A stretch of DNA of 23,253 bases, from positions 1 to 23,253 of the IMG/VR virus record IMGVR_UViG_3300038825_000655. One strand, 5' to 3'. How positions within the stretch are numbered: position 1 is the stretch's first letter; every line of letters begins with the position of its first letter. A program made the position numbers and the translations under genes. Source of the DNA: a virus. This document shows, in pieces, positions 3,649-18,784 of the stretch. A model generated the notes under the pieces. That model saw only the letters and a list, made by a program, of their open reading frames with translations. It was not told the DNA's origin and did no database searches.

Positions 3649-4323
3649 ATGGCCTATCTCCAAAGCAATATCCCACACTTTAAGGCGTGGGTAAGAAGGG
3701 AATACACGGTTAATCATGAGCGATACCATGGCGAGTTTTTACACGCTATGGTCATCGCCGTGACTACTATGCCTACTCGATGTCTTTCGTTTCAAGTTAT
3801 CTTTACTGGATGCGAAGCTGATGAAGACGAGCCCAACGTACACGGTGGCGCCATGTGGGCAAGAATGCCTATTACCGCGCTGGTCGGTGATACACCGTTT
3901 GAAGAATGGCCTGAGCCGATGCCTGTCTGGGCTGCTCAACCTTGGGATTGCAGTTCTCATACTCACTCTGTTTATGTGCTTGATCGCTGCACACCTTGTC
4001 CATGGATGGCTAAGATTGATGGCGAATTTTATCCTGCGAAATACCTTTTTACGGTAGACTACGCGGAGAATGAGATCGCTGATGATCCGGCGCAACACAA
4101 GCAATCGCATGTTCTTGAGTTGCTTGATGCTGGCGAATGGACTGGAAATATTGTAGCGTTACCCAATAACAGGGTTAGAGTTACGCATCCTGCTTGGTTT
4201 GAGACAGGTGAAGGTGCGCCAGACTTTAAGCCTTCACAGCATATTCATTACAGCAAGTCTGATTTAGACTATACGCTAGACGTAAACCAAGTTTTTGATA
4301 ACTTGTATGCGGACAAGGAATAA
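3649..4323 (+). CDS. Conserved marine-phage protein of unknown function (terminase-portal interval)
   Basis: 224 residues, globular and rich in aromatics, His and Cys, unlike its low-complexity neighbours. It resembles a strongly conserved protein I know from marine phages at the same place, between terminase and portal, whose function is not established to my knowledge. Five cysteines (C45, C55, C101, C114, C117) and clustered histidines (YHGEFLH at 26-32; CSSHTHS at 101-107) could bind a metal. RCTPCPW at 113-119 looks like a knuckle. The ATG comes two bases after the previous stop with only a weak upstream GGGCT, suggesting translational coupling. There is no membrane span. A small enzyme or a capsid-maturation or packaging factor is possible, but neither is supported by a known motif. 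Confidence 0.8.
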   Translation: MAYLQSNIPHFKAWVRREYTVNHERYHGEFLHAMVIAVTTMPTRCLSFQVIFTGCEADEDEPNVHGGAMWARMPITALVGDTPFEEWPEPMPVWAAQPWDCSSHTHSVYVLDRCTPCPWMAKIDGEFYPAKYLFTVDYAENEIADDPAQHKQSHVLELLDAGEWTGNIVALPNNRVRVTHPAWFETGEGAPDFKPSQHIHYSKSDLDYTLDVNQVFDNLYADKE

Positions 4324-7269: not shown

Positions 7270-7467
7270 ATGATTAAGAGAACCACAAGCTTTAAAGATC
7301 CAAAGGTAGACAAAGGCGGATTCACTGTTAAGGATCAAGGTCGCGTTAAGTACGCGTCTATTGAGTCTGTATCTGCTTCTGCAACTCCTAAGCCTGGAAT
7401 GGGCAAAGGTAAGTCTCGAGGCGGCGGTGACGCACAGCGAGGGACTAAGTTCGAAGGTATATTCTAA
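7270..7467 (+). CDS. Small basic protein of unknown function
   Basis: 65 residues, basic and Gly-rich in the second half. KPGMGKGKSRGGG (about 43-55) repeats the GMGKGK motif seen in the basic protein at 2603, including a 14-base identical nucleotide stretch. The end, RGTKFEGIF, resembles short proteins I know from marine phages. It starts two bases after the portal stop, and its own stop overlaps the next ATG by one base (TAATG), so translational coupling is likely. There is no membrane segment. It may be a small virion-internal peptide, but this is inference from charge and position. Confidence 0.72.
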   Translation: MIKRTTSFKDPKVDKGGFTVKDQGRVKYASIESVSASATPKPGMGKGKSRGGGDAQRGTKFEGIF

Positions 7468-8621
7468 TGAGCGGATGGGATATGGCTTGGCGTCGAGCTA
7501 ATCAACCAGTTGAGCAAATGCAAGGTGGTGTGGCACAACCAATGGGCATGCGAGAGCTTAGAGTGGCCGATCCACGCGGTACGGGCGGGGCTCTTGAAGG
7601 GTCTCCGAGAGGCCCTCAACAGCAAAATCTATACGATTCGTTAAAAAAACTTTTTGGCAAAAACGTTCAAAGATATGATAGTGGCGGCAACCTTCAAGAT
7701 CTTTTTAATCGCGCACGTCAACAAACTGGGCAAATTACGGCACAACCAGCGGTTATGCCTGATCTTCCGATGCGAAATCAAGGCCCTCAATACGAGGGTC
7801 GTAATTCCGATGGTTCTATATTTAGATCGCAGTTTCCTATGGAGAATAACAGGACCATACTAACAGATCACCGCGCACCACCGCGTCAACAAATGGGGCA
7901 ACAAAGAGGGCGATTGCCACAACAACAAATGGGGCAACAAAGAGGGCAATTGCCACAAGAGCAAGTCGGTTATTCACCATTACCTCGACAAAGAATGCCT
8001 CAGCCTAATCAAGGTTATGGCAATCGCTTTCCAGGTATGCAGTTCAGTGGACCTTTTTCTCAGCCAATGATGCCTCAAAACTATGGCATGGGTGGCGGAT
8101 ATCGTATGGGTGGCGGATACCAACAACCACCTATGATGCCCCAGTATCCTCAGCCAAGAACGCCTTATCCTCAGCCAATGCCACAGCCTGGTTATGGCGG
8201 CGGTTATGGCGGTGGATTCGGCGGAAGAGGACCGGGCGGTGGTTACGGCAATATGTATGCACAACAACCTCAAATGTACGGCGGGGGATATCCGCCACAA
8301 CCTCCGATGTTTGGTGGTGGCATGCAAGGTGGTTACGGCCAACAACCTCCGGCTTATGGTGGCGGCTTTGGAGGCGTTACGACCCAGGGACCAGAGACAG
8401 TGCGCGGTTCCCCTCAGTATATTCCAGGCTATGGAAGTGGCTACGGTGGCGGTATGGGCGGAATGTACAATCAACCACAAAGACAGCCTCAATATCAAAA
8501 TGCGCTTGGACCAAGCCCGTTTGGTGGTCAAATGAATCAAAGACAACAGCCACAACAAATGGGTGGTGGTTTTCAACAAATGGGCGGATTTGGCGGCGGA
8601 ATCATGAGGAGCTTTTACTAA
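7467..8621 (+). CDS. Gln/Pro/Gly/Tyr-rich low-complexity (prion-like) protein
   Basis: 384 residues with almost no hydrophobic core. Residues 1-110 are mixed and mostly polar, including a short Lys-rich helix (LKKLFGKNVQRY). Residues 135-170 contain a tandem 12-residue QQMGQQRGRLPQ-type repeat (DNA repeat at 7887-7958). From about residue 190 the chain is dominated by GYGGG, QPPMYGGG and PQPMPQ blocks, like the prion-like domains of RNA-binding proteins or flexible silk-like proteins. The composition favours disorder and self-association. One-base overlaps (TAATG) at both ends tie it to its neighbours. It is probably a virion or assembly protein because of its place between portal and scaffold genes. 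No specific family is recognised. Confidence 0.75.
   Translation: MSGWDMAWRRANQPVEQMQGGVAQPMGMRELRVADPRGTGGALEGSPRGPQQQNLYDSLKKLFGKNVQRYDSGGNLQDLFNRARQQTGQITAQPAVMPDLPMRNQGPQYEGRNSDGSIFRSQFPMENNRTILTDHRAPPRQQMGQQRGRLPQQQMGQQRGQLPQEQVGYSPLPRQRMPQPNQGYGNRFPGMQFSGPFSQPMMPQNYGMGGGYRMGGGYQQPPMMPQYPQPRTPYPQPMPQPGYGGGYGGGFGGRGPGGGYGNMYAQQPQMYGGGYPPQPPMFGGGMQGGYGQQPPAYGGGFGGVTTQGPETVRGSPQYIPGYGSGYGGGMGGMYNQPQRQPQYQNALGPSPFGGQMNQRQQPQQMGGGFQQMGGFGGGIMRSFY
7887..7958 (+). repeat. 36-nt tandem repeat, two copies
   Basis: Units 7887-7922 and 7923-7958 are nearly identical (36 nt, 12 codons) and lie in frame within the Gln/Pro/Gly-rich gene. They encode QQMGQQRGRLPQ and QQMGQQRGQLPQ. A recent slippage or duplication event is likely. 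Confidence 0.85.
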
Positions 8622-10543
8622 TGGCACCACGCAGAGGTAGAGGAAGACCATCTTCTATAGAGCGAGAAATTAGCGTATCTCCTAGAGATGCAACTAAGGT
8701 AGCTTCAAGAAGATCCACTCCTGTTAAAGCTCCTAGAAGAGGAACAATAAAAACGACAAGTAGGGGTGTAAGACCTCCTCGAGGCGGGACTGGAAGTCGA
8801 ACACCCGTATCAAATGCAGCAGTAATAGCTGCCGCTAAAAAAAGAGAAGAAGAAGCTAGAAGAGTCGCCGCTGAAGACAAAAAAGCCGCTGCAAGAAGAC
8901 GCGCTATTGCTCAACGAGAAGAAAAGAAAGCTGCACAAGAAAGAGCGAGAGCTGCAAAAGAAGCTGCTGAAGCTAAAGCTGCAAAAGAAAGGGCGCAAGC
9001 TAGGGCCGCAAAAGAAGCCGCAGATAAAGCTGCTAAAGAAAGAAATAGACTTAGAGCTGCTAAAGAAGCAGAGGCCAAAAGGGTTGCTCAAGCTAGAAGA
9101 CAAGCAGAATCAGAGCGTGCCGCTGAAGCTAAGCTTGCAGCAGAAGCTAAAAGAATTGCTGATGAAAAACGCGCTGCTGAAGAAGCCGCTGCAAAAAAAG
9201 CTAAAGAAAGAGAAGAAGCTAAAATACCTGATCGGAAGTCAACAAGGCAAAGCTTCACTCCTGATCAACTTGTTGAAAGATACAATAGCTCTCCGGCATC
9301 TAAAGATTTTAATTTGTCAGCTACATATGATCCTAAGACCAACACATTCACTGAAGATGTAAGTGCATTTGGCTTTACAGGAGATCAAGCGACCAAGACA
9401 TATACTCCAGAAGAGTTTATGAATAAGCTTGGTTATGTATCAGATGAATACGATAAGTTTAGTTTTGATCGTCCAAAAAATGAGCAAAAATTTACTGCAA
9501 ATGATCTTGTTGAAAGATACAACAACTCTCCTGGCGCTAAAGATTTTAATCTTAATGCTACATATGATCCTGCAACGAACACCTTTATTGAAGACGTAAG
9601 TGCTTTTGGATTTACAGGTGATGATGCTACTAAAACCTATACTCCAGAAGAGTTCATAGCAAAGCTTGGATATAAGGGAGATGACTACAATACCTTTAGT
9701 TTTGTCCAACCAGAGCAGAAACAAGAAGCACCTCCGGTAGAAGAAGCTTCTGTAGTTGAAAGCCCAGGACCTGTTACGGTTGTTGATCCTATTAAGACAG
9801 AAGATCCTGCTGATCCAGAACCTACACCTCCTGATATGCCTGGTTCTCCTATTGAAGATTTGATTTCTAAAACTCCAGATCTAGACGATATAAAAGTAAC
9901 CGATCAAGGACCTGCTCCCACATCTCCCGATATGCCGCCAGGATATCCATTTGAAGAAGGTCCAAGAGATGGACCTAAAATGGGACCTGCACCTCCAGGC
10001 TTTACGCATCATGGAGGAATATCAACAATGGCTTTGGTTCCTTTCTACAACCCTACAACGGGTGAAGAATGGACGGCGCCAAATGGAGGATGGAGTCCTG
10101 CACCGGGTTGGGTTCAAGGAACAAAGCCAGCAGATTGGAAGCCGCCAACAAGTGAACAGCCAAGTCCAGAACCTGATCCAGAACCAACGCCTCCACCACC
10201 ACCTACGTTTGTAGATATGGATCCGTTAAAAGGAATGCGTGAACAGTTTGTTCCACGGAATATTTTGGGTCAGTCTTATGATCCAGAAGTTCGAGAAGAC
10301 TTTGTTAAGAAAATGCAGTCGGGGGCTAATATATCTAGATACCCGACTTACGAAACGCCGACATCACCGCTTCCTCAAACTCAGTTTGGAGGGTACGGAC
10401 AGCCTATGCCTATGTCGCCACTAGCGCCATATGCTGGATTAGGTGCTCCGCCAATCCCGCCAACTGATGAAGATGAGCCGTATGATGAAGACGCAAGACC
10501 AGGAGGTCCTTCGCAACCACCTAGAGGAGGCGGAGTGTTTTAA
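8621..10543 (+). CDS. AT-hook / TolA-like helix / duplicated-domain protein
   Basis: 640 residues with a mosaic layout. Residues 1-60 are basic, with RRGRGRPSS at 4-12, an AT-hook-like R-G-R-P core typical of minor-groove DNA binding. Residues 66-203 are almost only Ala, Lys, Arg and Glu, like TolA domain II, and probably form a long single helix or coiled coil. A domain of about 72 residues then occurs twice (212-282 and 291-361), each starting FT.(D/N).LVERYN.SP and including EDVSAFGFTGD and TYTPEEF. A Pro-rich acidic region with PEPTPPDMP motifs runs from 365 to the C-terminus, interrupted by a Trp-rich patch (EEWTAPNGGWSPAPGWVQG, about 487-505). No known phage family matches the whole. 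DNA binding at one end and a long rod suggest an internal virion or ejection protein, by inference. Confidence 0.75.
   Translation: MAPRRGRGRPSSIEREISVSPRDATKVASRRSTPVKAPRRGTIKTTSRGVRPPRGGTGSRTPVSNAAVIAAAKKREEEARRVAAEDKKAAARRRAIAQREEKKAAQERARAAKEAAEAKAAKERAQARAAKEAADKAAKERNRLRAAKEAEAKRVAQARRQAESERAAEAKLAAEAKRIADEKRAAEEAAAKKAKEREEAKIPDRKSTRQSFTPDQLVERYNSSPASKDFNLSATYDPKTNTFTEDVSAFGFTGDQATKTYTPEEFMNKLGYVSDEYDKFSFDRPKNEQKFTANDLVERYNNSPGAKDFNLNATYDPATNTFIEDVSAFGFTGDDATKTYTPEEFIAKLGYKGDDYNTFSFVQPEQKQEAPPVEEASVVESPGPVTVVDPIKTEDPADPEPTPPDMPGSPIEDLISKTPDLDDIKVTDQGPAPTSPDMPPGYPFEEGPRDGPKMGPAPPGFTHHGGISTMALVPFYNPTTGEEWTAPNGGWSPAPGWVQGTKPADWKPPTSEQPSPEPDPEPTPPPPPTFVDMDPLKGMREQFVPRNILGQSYDPEVREDFVKKMQSGANISRYPTYETPTSPLPQTQFGGYGQPMPMSPLAPYAGLGAPPIPPTDEDEPYDEDARPGGPSQPPRGGGVF
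9254..9703 (+). repeat. Tandem duplication of a ~71-residue domain
   Basis: Two in-frame copies begin at 9254 and 9491, an offset of 237 nt (79 codons), each encoding FT..(D)LVERYN through ..F(S)F. Protein identity is high (for example EDVSAFGFTGD in both), while many codons differ at third positions. The duplication is therefore old and kept by selection at the protein level. Confidence 0.85.
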
Positions 10544-10740
10544 TGGATGCAGTTAATCTCTCAACTTATATCTTTAAAAAGCTTCAAAAGTTTGAAGAAG
10601 GTCATATTGAGTACTTGACTGGTGGGAACATTAAAACAATGGAGGACTATAAATTCGTGATGGGTGAGTTATCGATGCTTCGCACCCTTCGCGAGGAGTT
10701 AAAAGAAGCATTGCGAACTGAAGGAGACCCCGATGAGTAA
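10543..10740 (+). CDS. Small helical protein of unknown function
   Basis: 65 residues, helical, with a central GNIKTMEDYKFVMGELSMLRTLREELKEAL region. Small proteins with an EDYK...MGE pattern occur near structural genes of other phages, but I know of no assigned role. It starts with a TAATG one-base overlap on the preceding gene, and its last eight bases overlap the co-chaperonin start (ATGAGTAA), so the two are probably translated together. A GGAG sequence needed for the next gene lies inside its end. Confidence 0.72.
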   Translation: MDAVNLSTYIFKKLQKFEEGHIEYLTGGNIKTMEDYKFVMGELSMLRTLREELKEALRTEGDPDE

Positions 10741-17809: not shown

Positions 17810-17818
17810 GAATAATAT

Positions 17819-18784
17819 GTGGCCGATGTTACCGTTGCATTTGAAGGATGGAATAGCTCAACCCATGGCTGGGGCGAAGGCCCTTGGGGTGAAGGTGTTG
17901 CAGTACCTGGAGCAACAGGTGCAGTCGGTTCAGTTACAATTTCCGCAGATGCAAACGTTACTGTCACGGGTATCGCTGCAACAGGTTCTGTTGGAACCGC
18001 TACAGCCTCTGCTGATGCGGATGTATCAGTTACTGGCGTTTCCGCAACAGGGTCTGTTGGTTCGGTTACGGTATCGGCTGACGCAAATGTGGCAGTTACA
18101 GGTATTTCTGCGACCGGAGCGGTCGGAAGTGTCACTGTTACAGCAGATTCAATCACGACTGTCACAGGCGTTTCTGCCACCGGAGCGGTCGGAACAGTTA
18201 CGGTATCGGCTGATGCGATTGTCTCTGTATCGGGCGTTGCCGGAACGGGAGCAGTTGGAACAGTTACAGTTTCAATCGACGCGCTGGTTACTCCTACAGG
18301 CGTTTCAGCGACAGGCTCAGTTGGCGCAGCTACGGTTAGCGCAGATGCTACAGTTGAAGCAACGGGATCTAGCGGAACAGGCTCCGTTGGAAGCGTTACA
18401 ATTGAAGCAGATGCATTGGTTACGCCAACAGGAATCGCAGCTACAGGATCTGTCGGAACCGTTACCACAAAAACGAGCAATACCTTCCCAGTTACGGGCG
18501 TTTCTGCGACAGGTCAGGTCGGGACTGTTAGCTTTGTTGGTAACGTCACTATTGAAGTTACTGGAGTTAGTGCTCAAGGCGAAGTCGGGCAAGTTTTGGT
18601 CTGGGGCAAAATCATTCCTGGACAAGATGCAAATTGGCAAGCGATTGATGAAAGTCAATCACCAAACTGGCAAAATATTGACGAAAGCCAAACACCAAAT
18701 TGGCAAGCGATTGATGAAAGTCAATTACCAAACTGGCAAAATATTGACGAAAGCCAAACACCAAATTGGCAAGAGGTAGCATAA
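17819..18784 (+). CDS. Repeat-built tail/fibre-associated protein (ten 22-residue repeats)
   Basis: 321 residues from a GTG at 17819, with AGGAA six bases upstream. The N-terminal 31 residues (MADVTVAFEGWNSSTHGWGE and more Gly/Trp) form a distinct cap. Residues 32-251 are ten contiguous 22-residue repeats of the type ATGSVGTVTVSADANVTVTG, plus a partial eleventh. Every unit predicts beta strands and turns, so the whole is probably an elongated beta fibre or solenoid. Residues 270-321 are 11-residue PNWQAIDESQ-type repeats. An ATG two bases upstream opens another frame of similar length. Third-base changes between the 11-residue repeats (AAT/AAC, GAT/GAC, AGT/AGC) are silent only in this frame, so this frame is the coding one. 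It is probably a tail-fibre partner of the next gene. Confidence 0.8.
   Translation: MADVTVAFEGWNSSTHGWGEGPWGEGVAVPGATGAVGSVTISADANVTVTGIAATGSVGTATASADADVSVTGVSATGSVGSVTVSADANVAVTGISATGAVGSVTVTADSITTVTGVSATGAVGTVTVSADAIVSVSGVAGTGAVGTVTVSIDALVTPTGVSATGSVGAATVSADATVEATGSSGTGSVGSVTIEADALVTPTGIAATGSVGTVTTKTSNTFPVTGVSATGQVGTVSFVGNVTIEVTGVSAQGEVGQVLVWGKIIPGQDANWQAIDESQSPNWQNIDESQTPNWQAIDESQLPNWQNIDESQTPNWQEVA
17912..18605 (+). repeat. 66-nt coding repeats, ten plus partial copy
   Basis: In-frame 66-nt units begin at 17912 and continue to 18571, followed by a partial unit. Each encodes (A/G)TG(S/A)VG..T....D....V.G. The units diverge at the DNA level but keep the protein pattern, consistent with old internal duplication under selection. 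Confidence 0.85.
18630..18775 (+). repeat. 66-nt near-perfect tandem repeat made of two 33-nt halves
   Basis: Copies begin at 18630, 18696 and (partial) 18762, identical except for one base in the first 66. Each consists of two related 33-nt halves encoding NWQAIDESQSP and NWQNIDESQTP types. The high identity indicates a recent duplication, in contrast with the old repeats just before it. Confidence 0.88.

Follow-up and report, generated by a model that had tools for sequence, protein, structure and literature searches.

What is a protein for whose interior differs from phage to phage while most of the DNA around its gene hardly changes? This question is raised by an open reading frame (ORF) encoding 640 amino acids (aa) at 8621..10543 on the plus strand of a 23253-base virus record of IMG/VR (IMGVR_UViG_3300038825_000655), the whole of which is referred to here as the window. 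An earlier note, made from the letters of the window alone, had described its product as a mosaic of an AT-hook-like start, an Ala/Lys/Glu/Arg rod, a duplicated unfamiliar domain and an acidic Pro-rich end, and had suggested an internal protein that organises packaged DNA or is ejected with it. The frame is clean and open, and comparison with relatives identifies its product as a mosaic cassette protein. We are highly confident of the genetic part of this description, namely that conserved ends enclose variable modules and that near-identical phages gain, lose or replace whole modules. The fuller proposal, in which the protein is in addition carried in the virion and ejected from it, is put forward tentatively, its chances being a little short of even.

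The relatives used were IMG/VR loci confirmed by tblastn (22, 28 and 33 loci in three overlapping sets). They keep a short N-terminal motif and a C-terminal core of about 80 residues (C-core), between which they carry different subsets of modules of 45-85 residues joined by Pro-rich linkers. The modules were named M1 (the duplicated domain, present in zero, one or two copies) to M8, in addition to some short ones. Relatedness was measured over the 1.7 kb downstream of the mosaic gene, and loci with at least 98% identity there were considered near-identical. For the pair counts, genes incomplete after the rod and L042-L044 (sister copies of L041) were left out, and L002 was retained even though its frame starts after a stop within the rod. 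The remaining 17 genes, complete after the rod, gave 28 near-identical pairs, 27 of which carry different module strings (the sole pair with the same string is L007/L008); the pairs are not independent, since 21 come from one clade of seven. DNA was scored as unalignable in 35 pairs of near-identical loci if no ordered alignment at 88% identity was possible. The unalignable share was 10038 of 36544 nucleotides (nt; 27.5%) in the module region, 5350 of 15993 nt (33.5%) in the N-terminal and rod region, and 5867 of 13362 nt (43.9%) in the 1.2 kb that precede the mosaic gene, against 876 of 175179 nt (0.5%) elsewhere. Hypervariability is thus confined to the mosaic gene and its upstream neighbour.

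Individual pairs illustrate the nature of the changes. L014 and L038 are identical over 1400 nt, then differ in one cassette block that is bounded by the linkers DPEPTPP and GPAPTPPVM, and are 98.8% identical over the next 674 nt; L033 equals L004 plus one M5 cassette added between EPTPP linkers; and L034 has an M1 that L007 and L008 lack. Exchange across clades was scored at nucleotide identities of at least 95% between modules of phages at most 83% identical downstream. This level was reached by 15 of 30 pairs for M6, 8 of 27 for M7, 3 of 9 for M5, 2 of 35 for M3 and 1 of 17 for M4, and by none of the pairs for M2 (0/4) and M8 (0/1). L050 shares 61% C-core identity with the window, and its M6 protein is identical to the M6 of L004 and L033, two relatives with C-cores at 98% identity. 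Modules are thus exchanged between phages, some being 95-100% identical in phages at most 83% identical downstream.

Several module breakpoints fall in codons of the Pro-rich linkers. Linker DNA is used repeatedly: of 35 instances of the linker motif PTPP in 14 genes, 21 start with CCC, a codon making up 70 of the 991 Pro codons there, and the longest exact repeat of the L014 module region is a 13-nt linker, GCCCACGCCTCCC. Breakpoint clusters, which are not independent of each other, lie at linkers in 45 of 143 cases compared to 26.5 expected, a count reached by 12 of 5000 random draws. Since some joints at module edges lack PxPP and the clusters are not independent, recombination at linkers is considered likely but not proven.

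Read along its length (all features on the plus strand), the window protein has the mosaic architecture that had been described. Its basic N-terminal segment (residues 1-62, 8621..8806) begins MAPRRGRGRPSS, has a net charge of +14 and an isoelectric point of 12.0, and contains RGRGRP followed by PSS[IVM]E[RK]. An AT-hook-like element, in the sense of a GRP core with basic flanks, is present in the window protein; as a conserved feature it did not hold, the core RGRP being found in no more than 7 of the 18 homologous N-termini compared. The neighbouring motif PSS[IV]E[RK] was matched in 16 of the 18 (L005 and L020 read PSSMER), and the broadened form PSS[IVM]E[RK] is common to all of them. In L033 and L065 two different N-termini stand in series, joined at the PSSIER motif. 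The DNA-organising role that had been built on the AT-hook loses its footing with the core missing from 11 of the 18 N-termini; such a role is possible for the basic segment, but AT-hook conservation gives it no support, and the exchange of modules between phages points to diversification directed at the host and not to a constant task in the packing of DNA.

The rod (residues 63-208, 8807..9244), which differs in length among relatives, has 52 Ala, 22 Lys, 22 Arg and 24 Glu among its 146 residues. It is followed by the two M1 copies (residues 212-285, 9254..9475, and residues 291-364, 9491..9712), the duplication of which bears out the spacing of 79 residues noted before: at the DNA level it is a direct repeat of 237 nt (9247-9483 and 9484-9720, 75% identical), and the spacing of exactly 237 nt corresponds to 79 codons. 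The protein copies, about 74 residues each, are 74% identical. The ratio of nonsynonymous to synonymous substitution rates (dN/dS) between them is 0.21, and it ranges from 0.09 to 0.24 over 10 of 15 M1 copy pairs, namely those of equal length (pairs of unequal length were dropped before the computation), so that M1 is under purifying selection and the repeat is no product of chance. The remainder, residues 367-640, is acidic (net charge -25) and rich in Pro (62 of 274). It includes two copies of a 22-nt direct repeat family coding for the linker DPEPTPP (9810..9831 and, 91% identical, 10173..10194), the modules M11 and M7 between these (residues 440-511, 9938..10153, PPGFT..FYNPTTGEEWTAP..GGW) and the C-core (residues 529-609, 10205..10447), for which we propose a docking role. 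Across seven diverse sequences the C-core alignment has 42 invariant columns. Of 15 C-core pairs, four were saturated and the remaining 11 have dN/dS values of 0.03-0.10; the C-core is under purifying selection. Lack of cysteine was given no weight as a virion signature: the mosaic protein has no cysteine, nor do 12 of 14 further proteins with modules (the two others, which contain a Hint domain, have 2 and 3), but the residue is likewise missing from 9 out of 21 ORFs inspected in the window.

Searches of the window protein against Pfam, PHROGs and NCBIfam gave sub-threshold matches only, including no recognisable enzymatic or nucleic-acid domain. DUF7390 (17.8 bits, cut-off 28.4), phrog_2183 (E-value 0.012) and an EntC-like match in the rod (14.5, cut-off 770) were read as chance or composition. 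The C-core has no family match, and L109, another M1-bearing protein, matches phrog_342 weakly (E-value 0.004). That the repeat would lie outside known families was upheld by these searches and by a comparison of M1 with PDB sequences (best E-value 0.15). The fold prediction proposed for it gave a confident AlphaFold2 model of helices and a hairpin (predicted local distance difference test, pLDDT, 86; predicted template modelling score 0.75), for which Foldseek found nothing at an E-value of 0.001 or better in PDB and BFVD; the best Z of VIA was 4.5 (HpFlaG, 65 residues at 4.5 A), graded as middling by the tool. An alignment of tandem M1 copies was poor and was not used. A literature search found no description of such a protein, many subscription papers being outside its reach, and nothing usable on the virion proteomics of HMO-2011-type phages; a term search of the paper on the HTVC023P type (PMC9599517) returned no structural or hypervariable protein of this kind.

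The window virus, a bacterial virus of marine type, is an HTVC023P/Pam1-like podovirus, since its capsid protein, assigned to phrog_371, shares 68% identity with its counterparts in Pelagibacter phage HTVC023P and phage DSL-LC04; the Pam1 part of this label rests on annotation in DSL-LC04. The gene order is terminase, portal, a Gly/Pro/Gln-rich ORF of 384 aa (7467..8621, plus strand), the mosaic gene, an ORF of 65 aa (10543..10740, plus strand) and GroES, followed by a scaffold-like protein, two genes, the major capsid protein, adaptor-type genes and a long spike-like protein. The mosaic gene overlaps both of its neighbours by 1 nt (TAATG at 8621 and at 10543) and is for this reason read as part of the head operon, so that the linkage to head genes expected in the earlier note, here to portal on one side and to GroES, scaffold-like and capsid genes on the other, was borne out. 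The hypervariable island begins with the 384-aa ORF, which has no Pfam or PHROGs family. This ORF is hypervariable too, with 48% identity over 345 aa in L034 and L007, the portals of which are 98% identical. The 65-aa ORF stays beside GroES in relatives whose contigs extend that far. Elsewhere in the window, the ORF at 3649-4323 between terminase and portal matches a PHROGs family named ferredoxin (phrog_3704, E-value 1.1e-28) and is 91-95% identical in L055 and L059, where the portal is only 65-78% identical, and at 17817-18784 two long frames of similar length overlap (320 aa from ATG at 17817, 321 aa from GTG at 17819).

The modules occur outside close relatives as well. M1 was found in the slot between portal and GroES in the distant relatives L074 and L099 and in other mosaic proteins of other phages (L075-L086, L108-L113), M7-like stretches in L122-L127 and L129-L131, and M4 in L134. 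When 27 loci, all partial, were compared with the window, 13 showed no match to any of its genes (L075, L076, L077, L080, L083, L105, L106, L108, L109, L111, L112, L123 and L129), and L113 and L124 matched one window gene each. The capsid protein of L083 belongs to phrog_267, another PHROGs family than that of the window. In L113 (7413-9521) a very Lys/Arg-rich, histone-tail-like N-terminus precedes M1 and a Gln-rich region, and in L122 the bearer of the M7-like module is a Gln-rich protein. L129 matches HMO-2011-type phages; the gene that follows the one for its protein with the M7-like stretch codes for an SLT transglycosylase domain (PF01464, 30.3 bits, cut-off 21.3), an ORF of 1125 aa lies farther on, and the gene order resembles ejection-protein blocks. 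Among host genomes (genome_contigs), 416 pattern matches to the M1 profile yielded no confirmed relative, and the M7 profile yielded one, L136, where the M7-like stretch (1359-1460, hidden Markov model E-value 4e-13) belongs to an RTX-type, possibly secreted protein on an alphaproteobacterial single-cell genome contig.

In L125, L126 and L127 the mosaic gene sits in the same slot as in the window and a Hint/intein-like domain is inserted among the modules (L125 7599-8021, L126 7503-7925, L127 5272-5694). The domain was matched by PF05203 (cut-off 32.1) with 39.3 bits in L125 and 32.2 bits in L126, and by TIGR01443 (cut-off 15.6) with 22.4 and 20.3, and was assigned in L127 through 87% identity. 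It starts with Cys and ends with His-Asn, followed by Lys, with no splicing nucleophile, and it probably cuts the chain in these three positional relatives.

How might such a protein work? Change confined to two genes of the head operon in near-identical phages would be expected of a host-facing trait, and the reshuffling suggests that the virus varies something used against its host. The ORFs 7467-8621 and 8621-10543 form a two-gene hypervariable island within the head operon of this podovirus. We propose that the conserved C-core would dock the protein, with a conserved component of the head or portal as the probable site in the particle, and that the modules would travel to the host on flexible linkers, most likely leaving the capsid with the DNA in the manner of ejection proteins. 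Short-homology recombination at the linker DNA would keep swapping modules, so that a blocked or mismatched module could be replaced. An ejected virion protein is favoured because of the portal-side slot, the context of L129 with its SLT-containing neighbour, and the exclusion precedent for ejection proteins: P22 mutants that escape the injection block of SieA are described as carrying changes in the ejection proteins gp16 and gp20 (PMC10883804).

A number of points weigh against this proposal. The window protein matches no ejection or internal virion protein family in PHROGs or Pfam, and we infer its virion location from sequence and gene context. In tblastn searches with the full-length protein, with its C-core and with modules joined together, none of the annotated phage records of the collection encoded the mosaic protein and nothing useful was returned (one search gave a single phage, in two records, Edwardsiella pEt-SU, E-value 0.2). 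The C-core is absent from the related isolates examined (HTVC023P, DSL-LC04, HTVC027P and others), so the protein is not generally needed by this type of phage. Exchange at 95% identity or more across clades was seen in 0 of 50 pairs for M1 and in a single case for the C-core (1/252), and the enrichment of breakpoints at linkers is modest. When a natural 486-residue stretch of L050 was modelled, the mean pLDDT was 45; M2 and M4 alone reached fair confidence, M3, M6 and the C-core being of low confidence. Some modules may thus be unstructured peptides, with M1 alone folding confidently.

Two further points on this side face outwards and belong to the main rival, surface display, which we consider possible but rather doubtful. 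Here the protein would be a fibre-like decoration of head or collar, held to the particle by its basic or its C-terminal end, the rod and Pro-rich linkers forming a flexible stalk and the exchanged modules binding targets on cell or particle surfaces. The M1-bearing protein of L075 has a collagen repeat (Pfam Collagen, 58.8 bits) and matches tail-fibre and collagen-like tail families of PHROGs, a distant M7-like stretch occurs in the RTX-type protein of L136, and tail fibres and neck passage structures figure among the examples of recent domain exchange in PMC10684548. Together with the Pro-rich linkers, the collagen repeats and the RTX-type relative make surface display almost as good a reading as ejection. 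The gene, however, lies in the interval of portal, GroES and capsid and not among tail genes, the module-bearing protein of L129 is found in an SLT-containing block, and the window protein matches no fibre family in Pfam, PHROGs or NCBIfam.

An assembly or late intracellular factor, disordered and never packaged, whose modules drift since they are of little importance while it aids capsid assembly or acts late on the host, would agree with the translational coupling to GroES and the scaffold region and with the predicted unfolded state of much of the protein (from the model of the relative L050). We regard it as improbable: purifying selection acts on M1 and on the C-core, whole modules are exchanged intact rather than decayed, and capsid and scaffold genes are near-identical in the same phages, where a changing assembly partner is not expected. 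Fusion of pieces of different phages at repeats during metagenome assembly seems very remote, for although all close relatives are metagenome contigs and the rods contain exact repeats of up to 65 nt, the longest exact repeat in the module region is 9-26 nt (12 genes), short for a chimera, arrangements recur across metagenomes (L007/L008; L041, L042, L044 and the open-ended L022), as does the doubled N-terminus in L033 and L065, and frames remain open through the junctions, so that the module differences are most likely real.

If the protein is ejected into the host, as preferred here, its cassettes would be naturally sorted small new domains acting on host factors that could easily be expressed and screened; should it instead be located on the outside, it would represent a receptor-facing diversity system away from the tail. 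A wider conjecture, to which we attach a rather low probability, is that unrelated aquatic phage types share a pool of tiny interchangeable cassettes, a self-cleaving Hint domain among them, which are displayed or injected from virion proteins with a lineage-specific docking end and reshuffled within single populations at linker codons. If true, this would be a phage-side counterpart, in the head operon, of polymorphic toxin or adhesin loci.

The cassette protein can be placed next to several known systems. With podovirus ejection proteins (T7 gp14-16, P22 gp7/16/20), as presented in PMC8954989 and PMC10883804, it would share a short-tailed phage, a likely late gene, mosaic conservation and a possible target of exclusion by the host; it differs from them by the lack of a sequence match, by its position between portal and GroES, and by its rod and Pro-rich linkers. 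Unlike tail fibre and receptor-binding proteins, it is not encoded among tail genes and its conserved end is a C-core without family match. Polyvalent proteins, as described by Iyer et al. (2017; PMC5512222), likewise combine several different domains in one polypeptide, here M1 twice, M7 and the C-core, with up to five further mapped modules in relatives, and are predicted to be delivered with DNA; chain processing is among the topics of that work, the counterpart here being the Hint domain of three relatives. They bring together recognisable enzymatic and nucleic-acid domains, in contrast to the window protein, in which none was found. The Hint domains of L125-L127 resemble A-type bacterial intein-like (BIL) domains in starting with Cys, ending with His-Asn and lacking a splicing nucleophile; BIL domains are reported in PMC7765530 from hypervariable stretches within proteins that are not conserved; the present case differs in that the domain occurs in three relatives only and not in the window protein, and that its cleavage is predicted.

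The closest parallel is the recent domain mosaicism of phage proteins surveyed by Smug et al. (2023; PMC10684548), in which segments are exchanged, gained or lost between related phages, leaving the same sign of near-identical stretches beside unrelated ones. In contrast to those cases, several tiny unnamed modules, strung on linkers, are exchanged here within a protein of the head operon. None of the six examples worked through in that survey is of this class, and its main text does not contain the terms "ejection" and "internal virion". Cassette shuffling is accordingly a new form of an already known phage protein mosaicism, seen here in a protein of the head operon when near-identical members of a widespread type of aquatic phage are compared, and M1, judged by its sequence, appears to be a new, unnamed module family within it.

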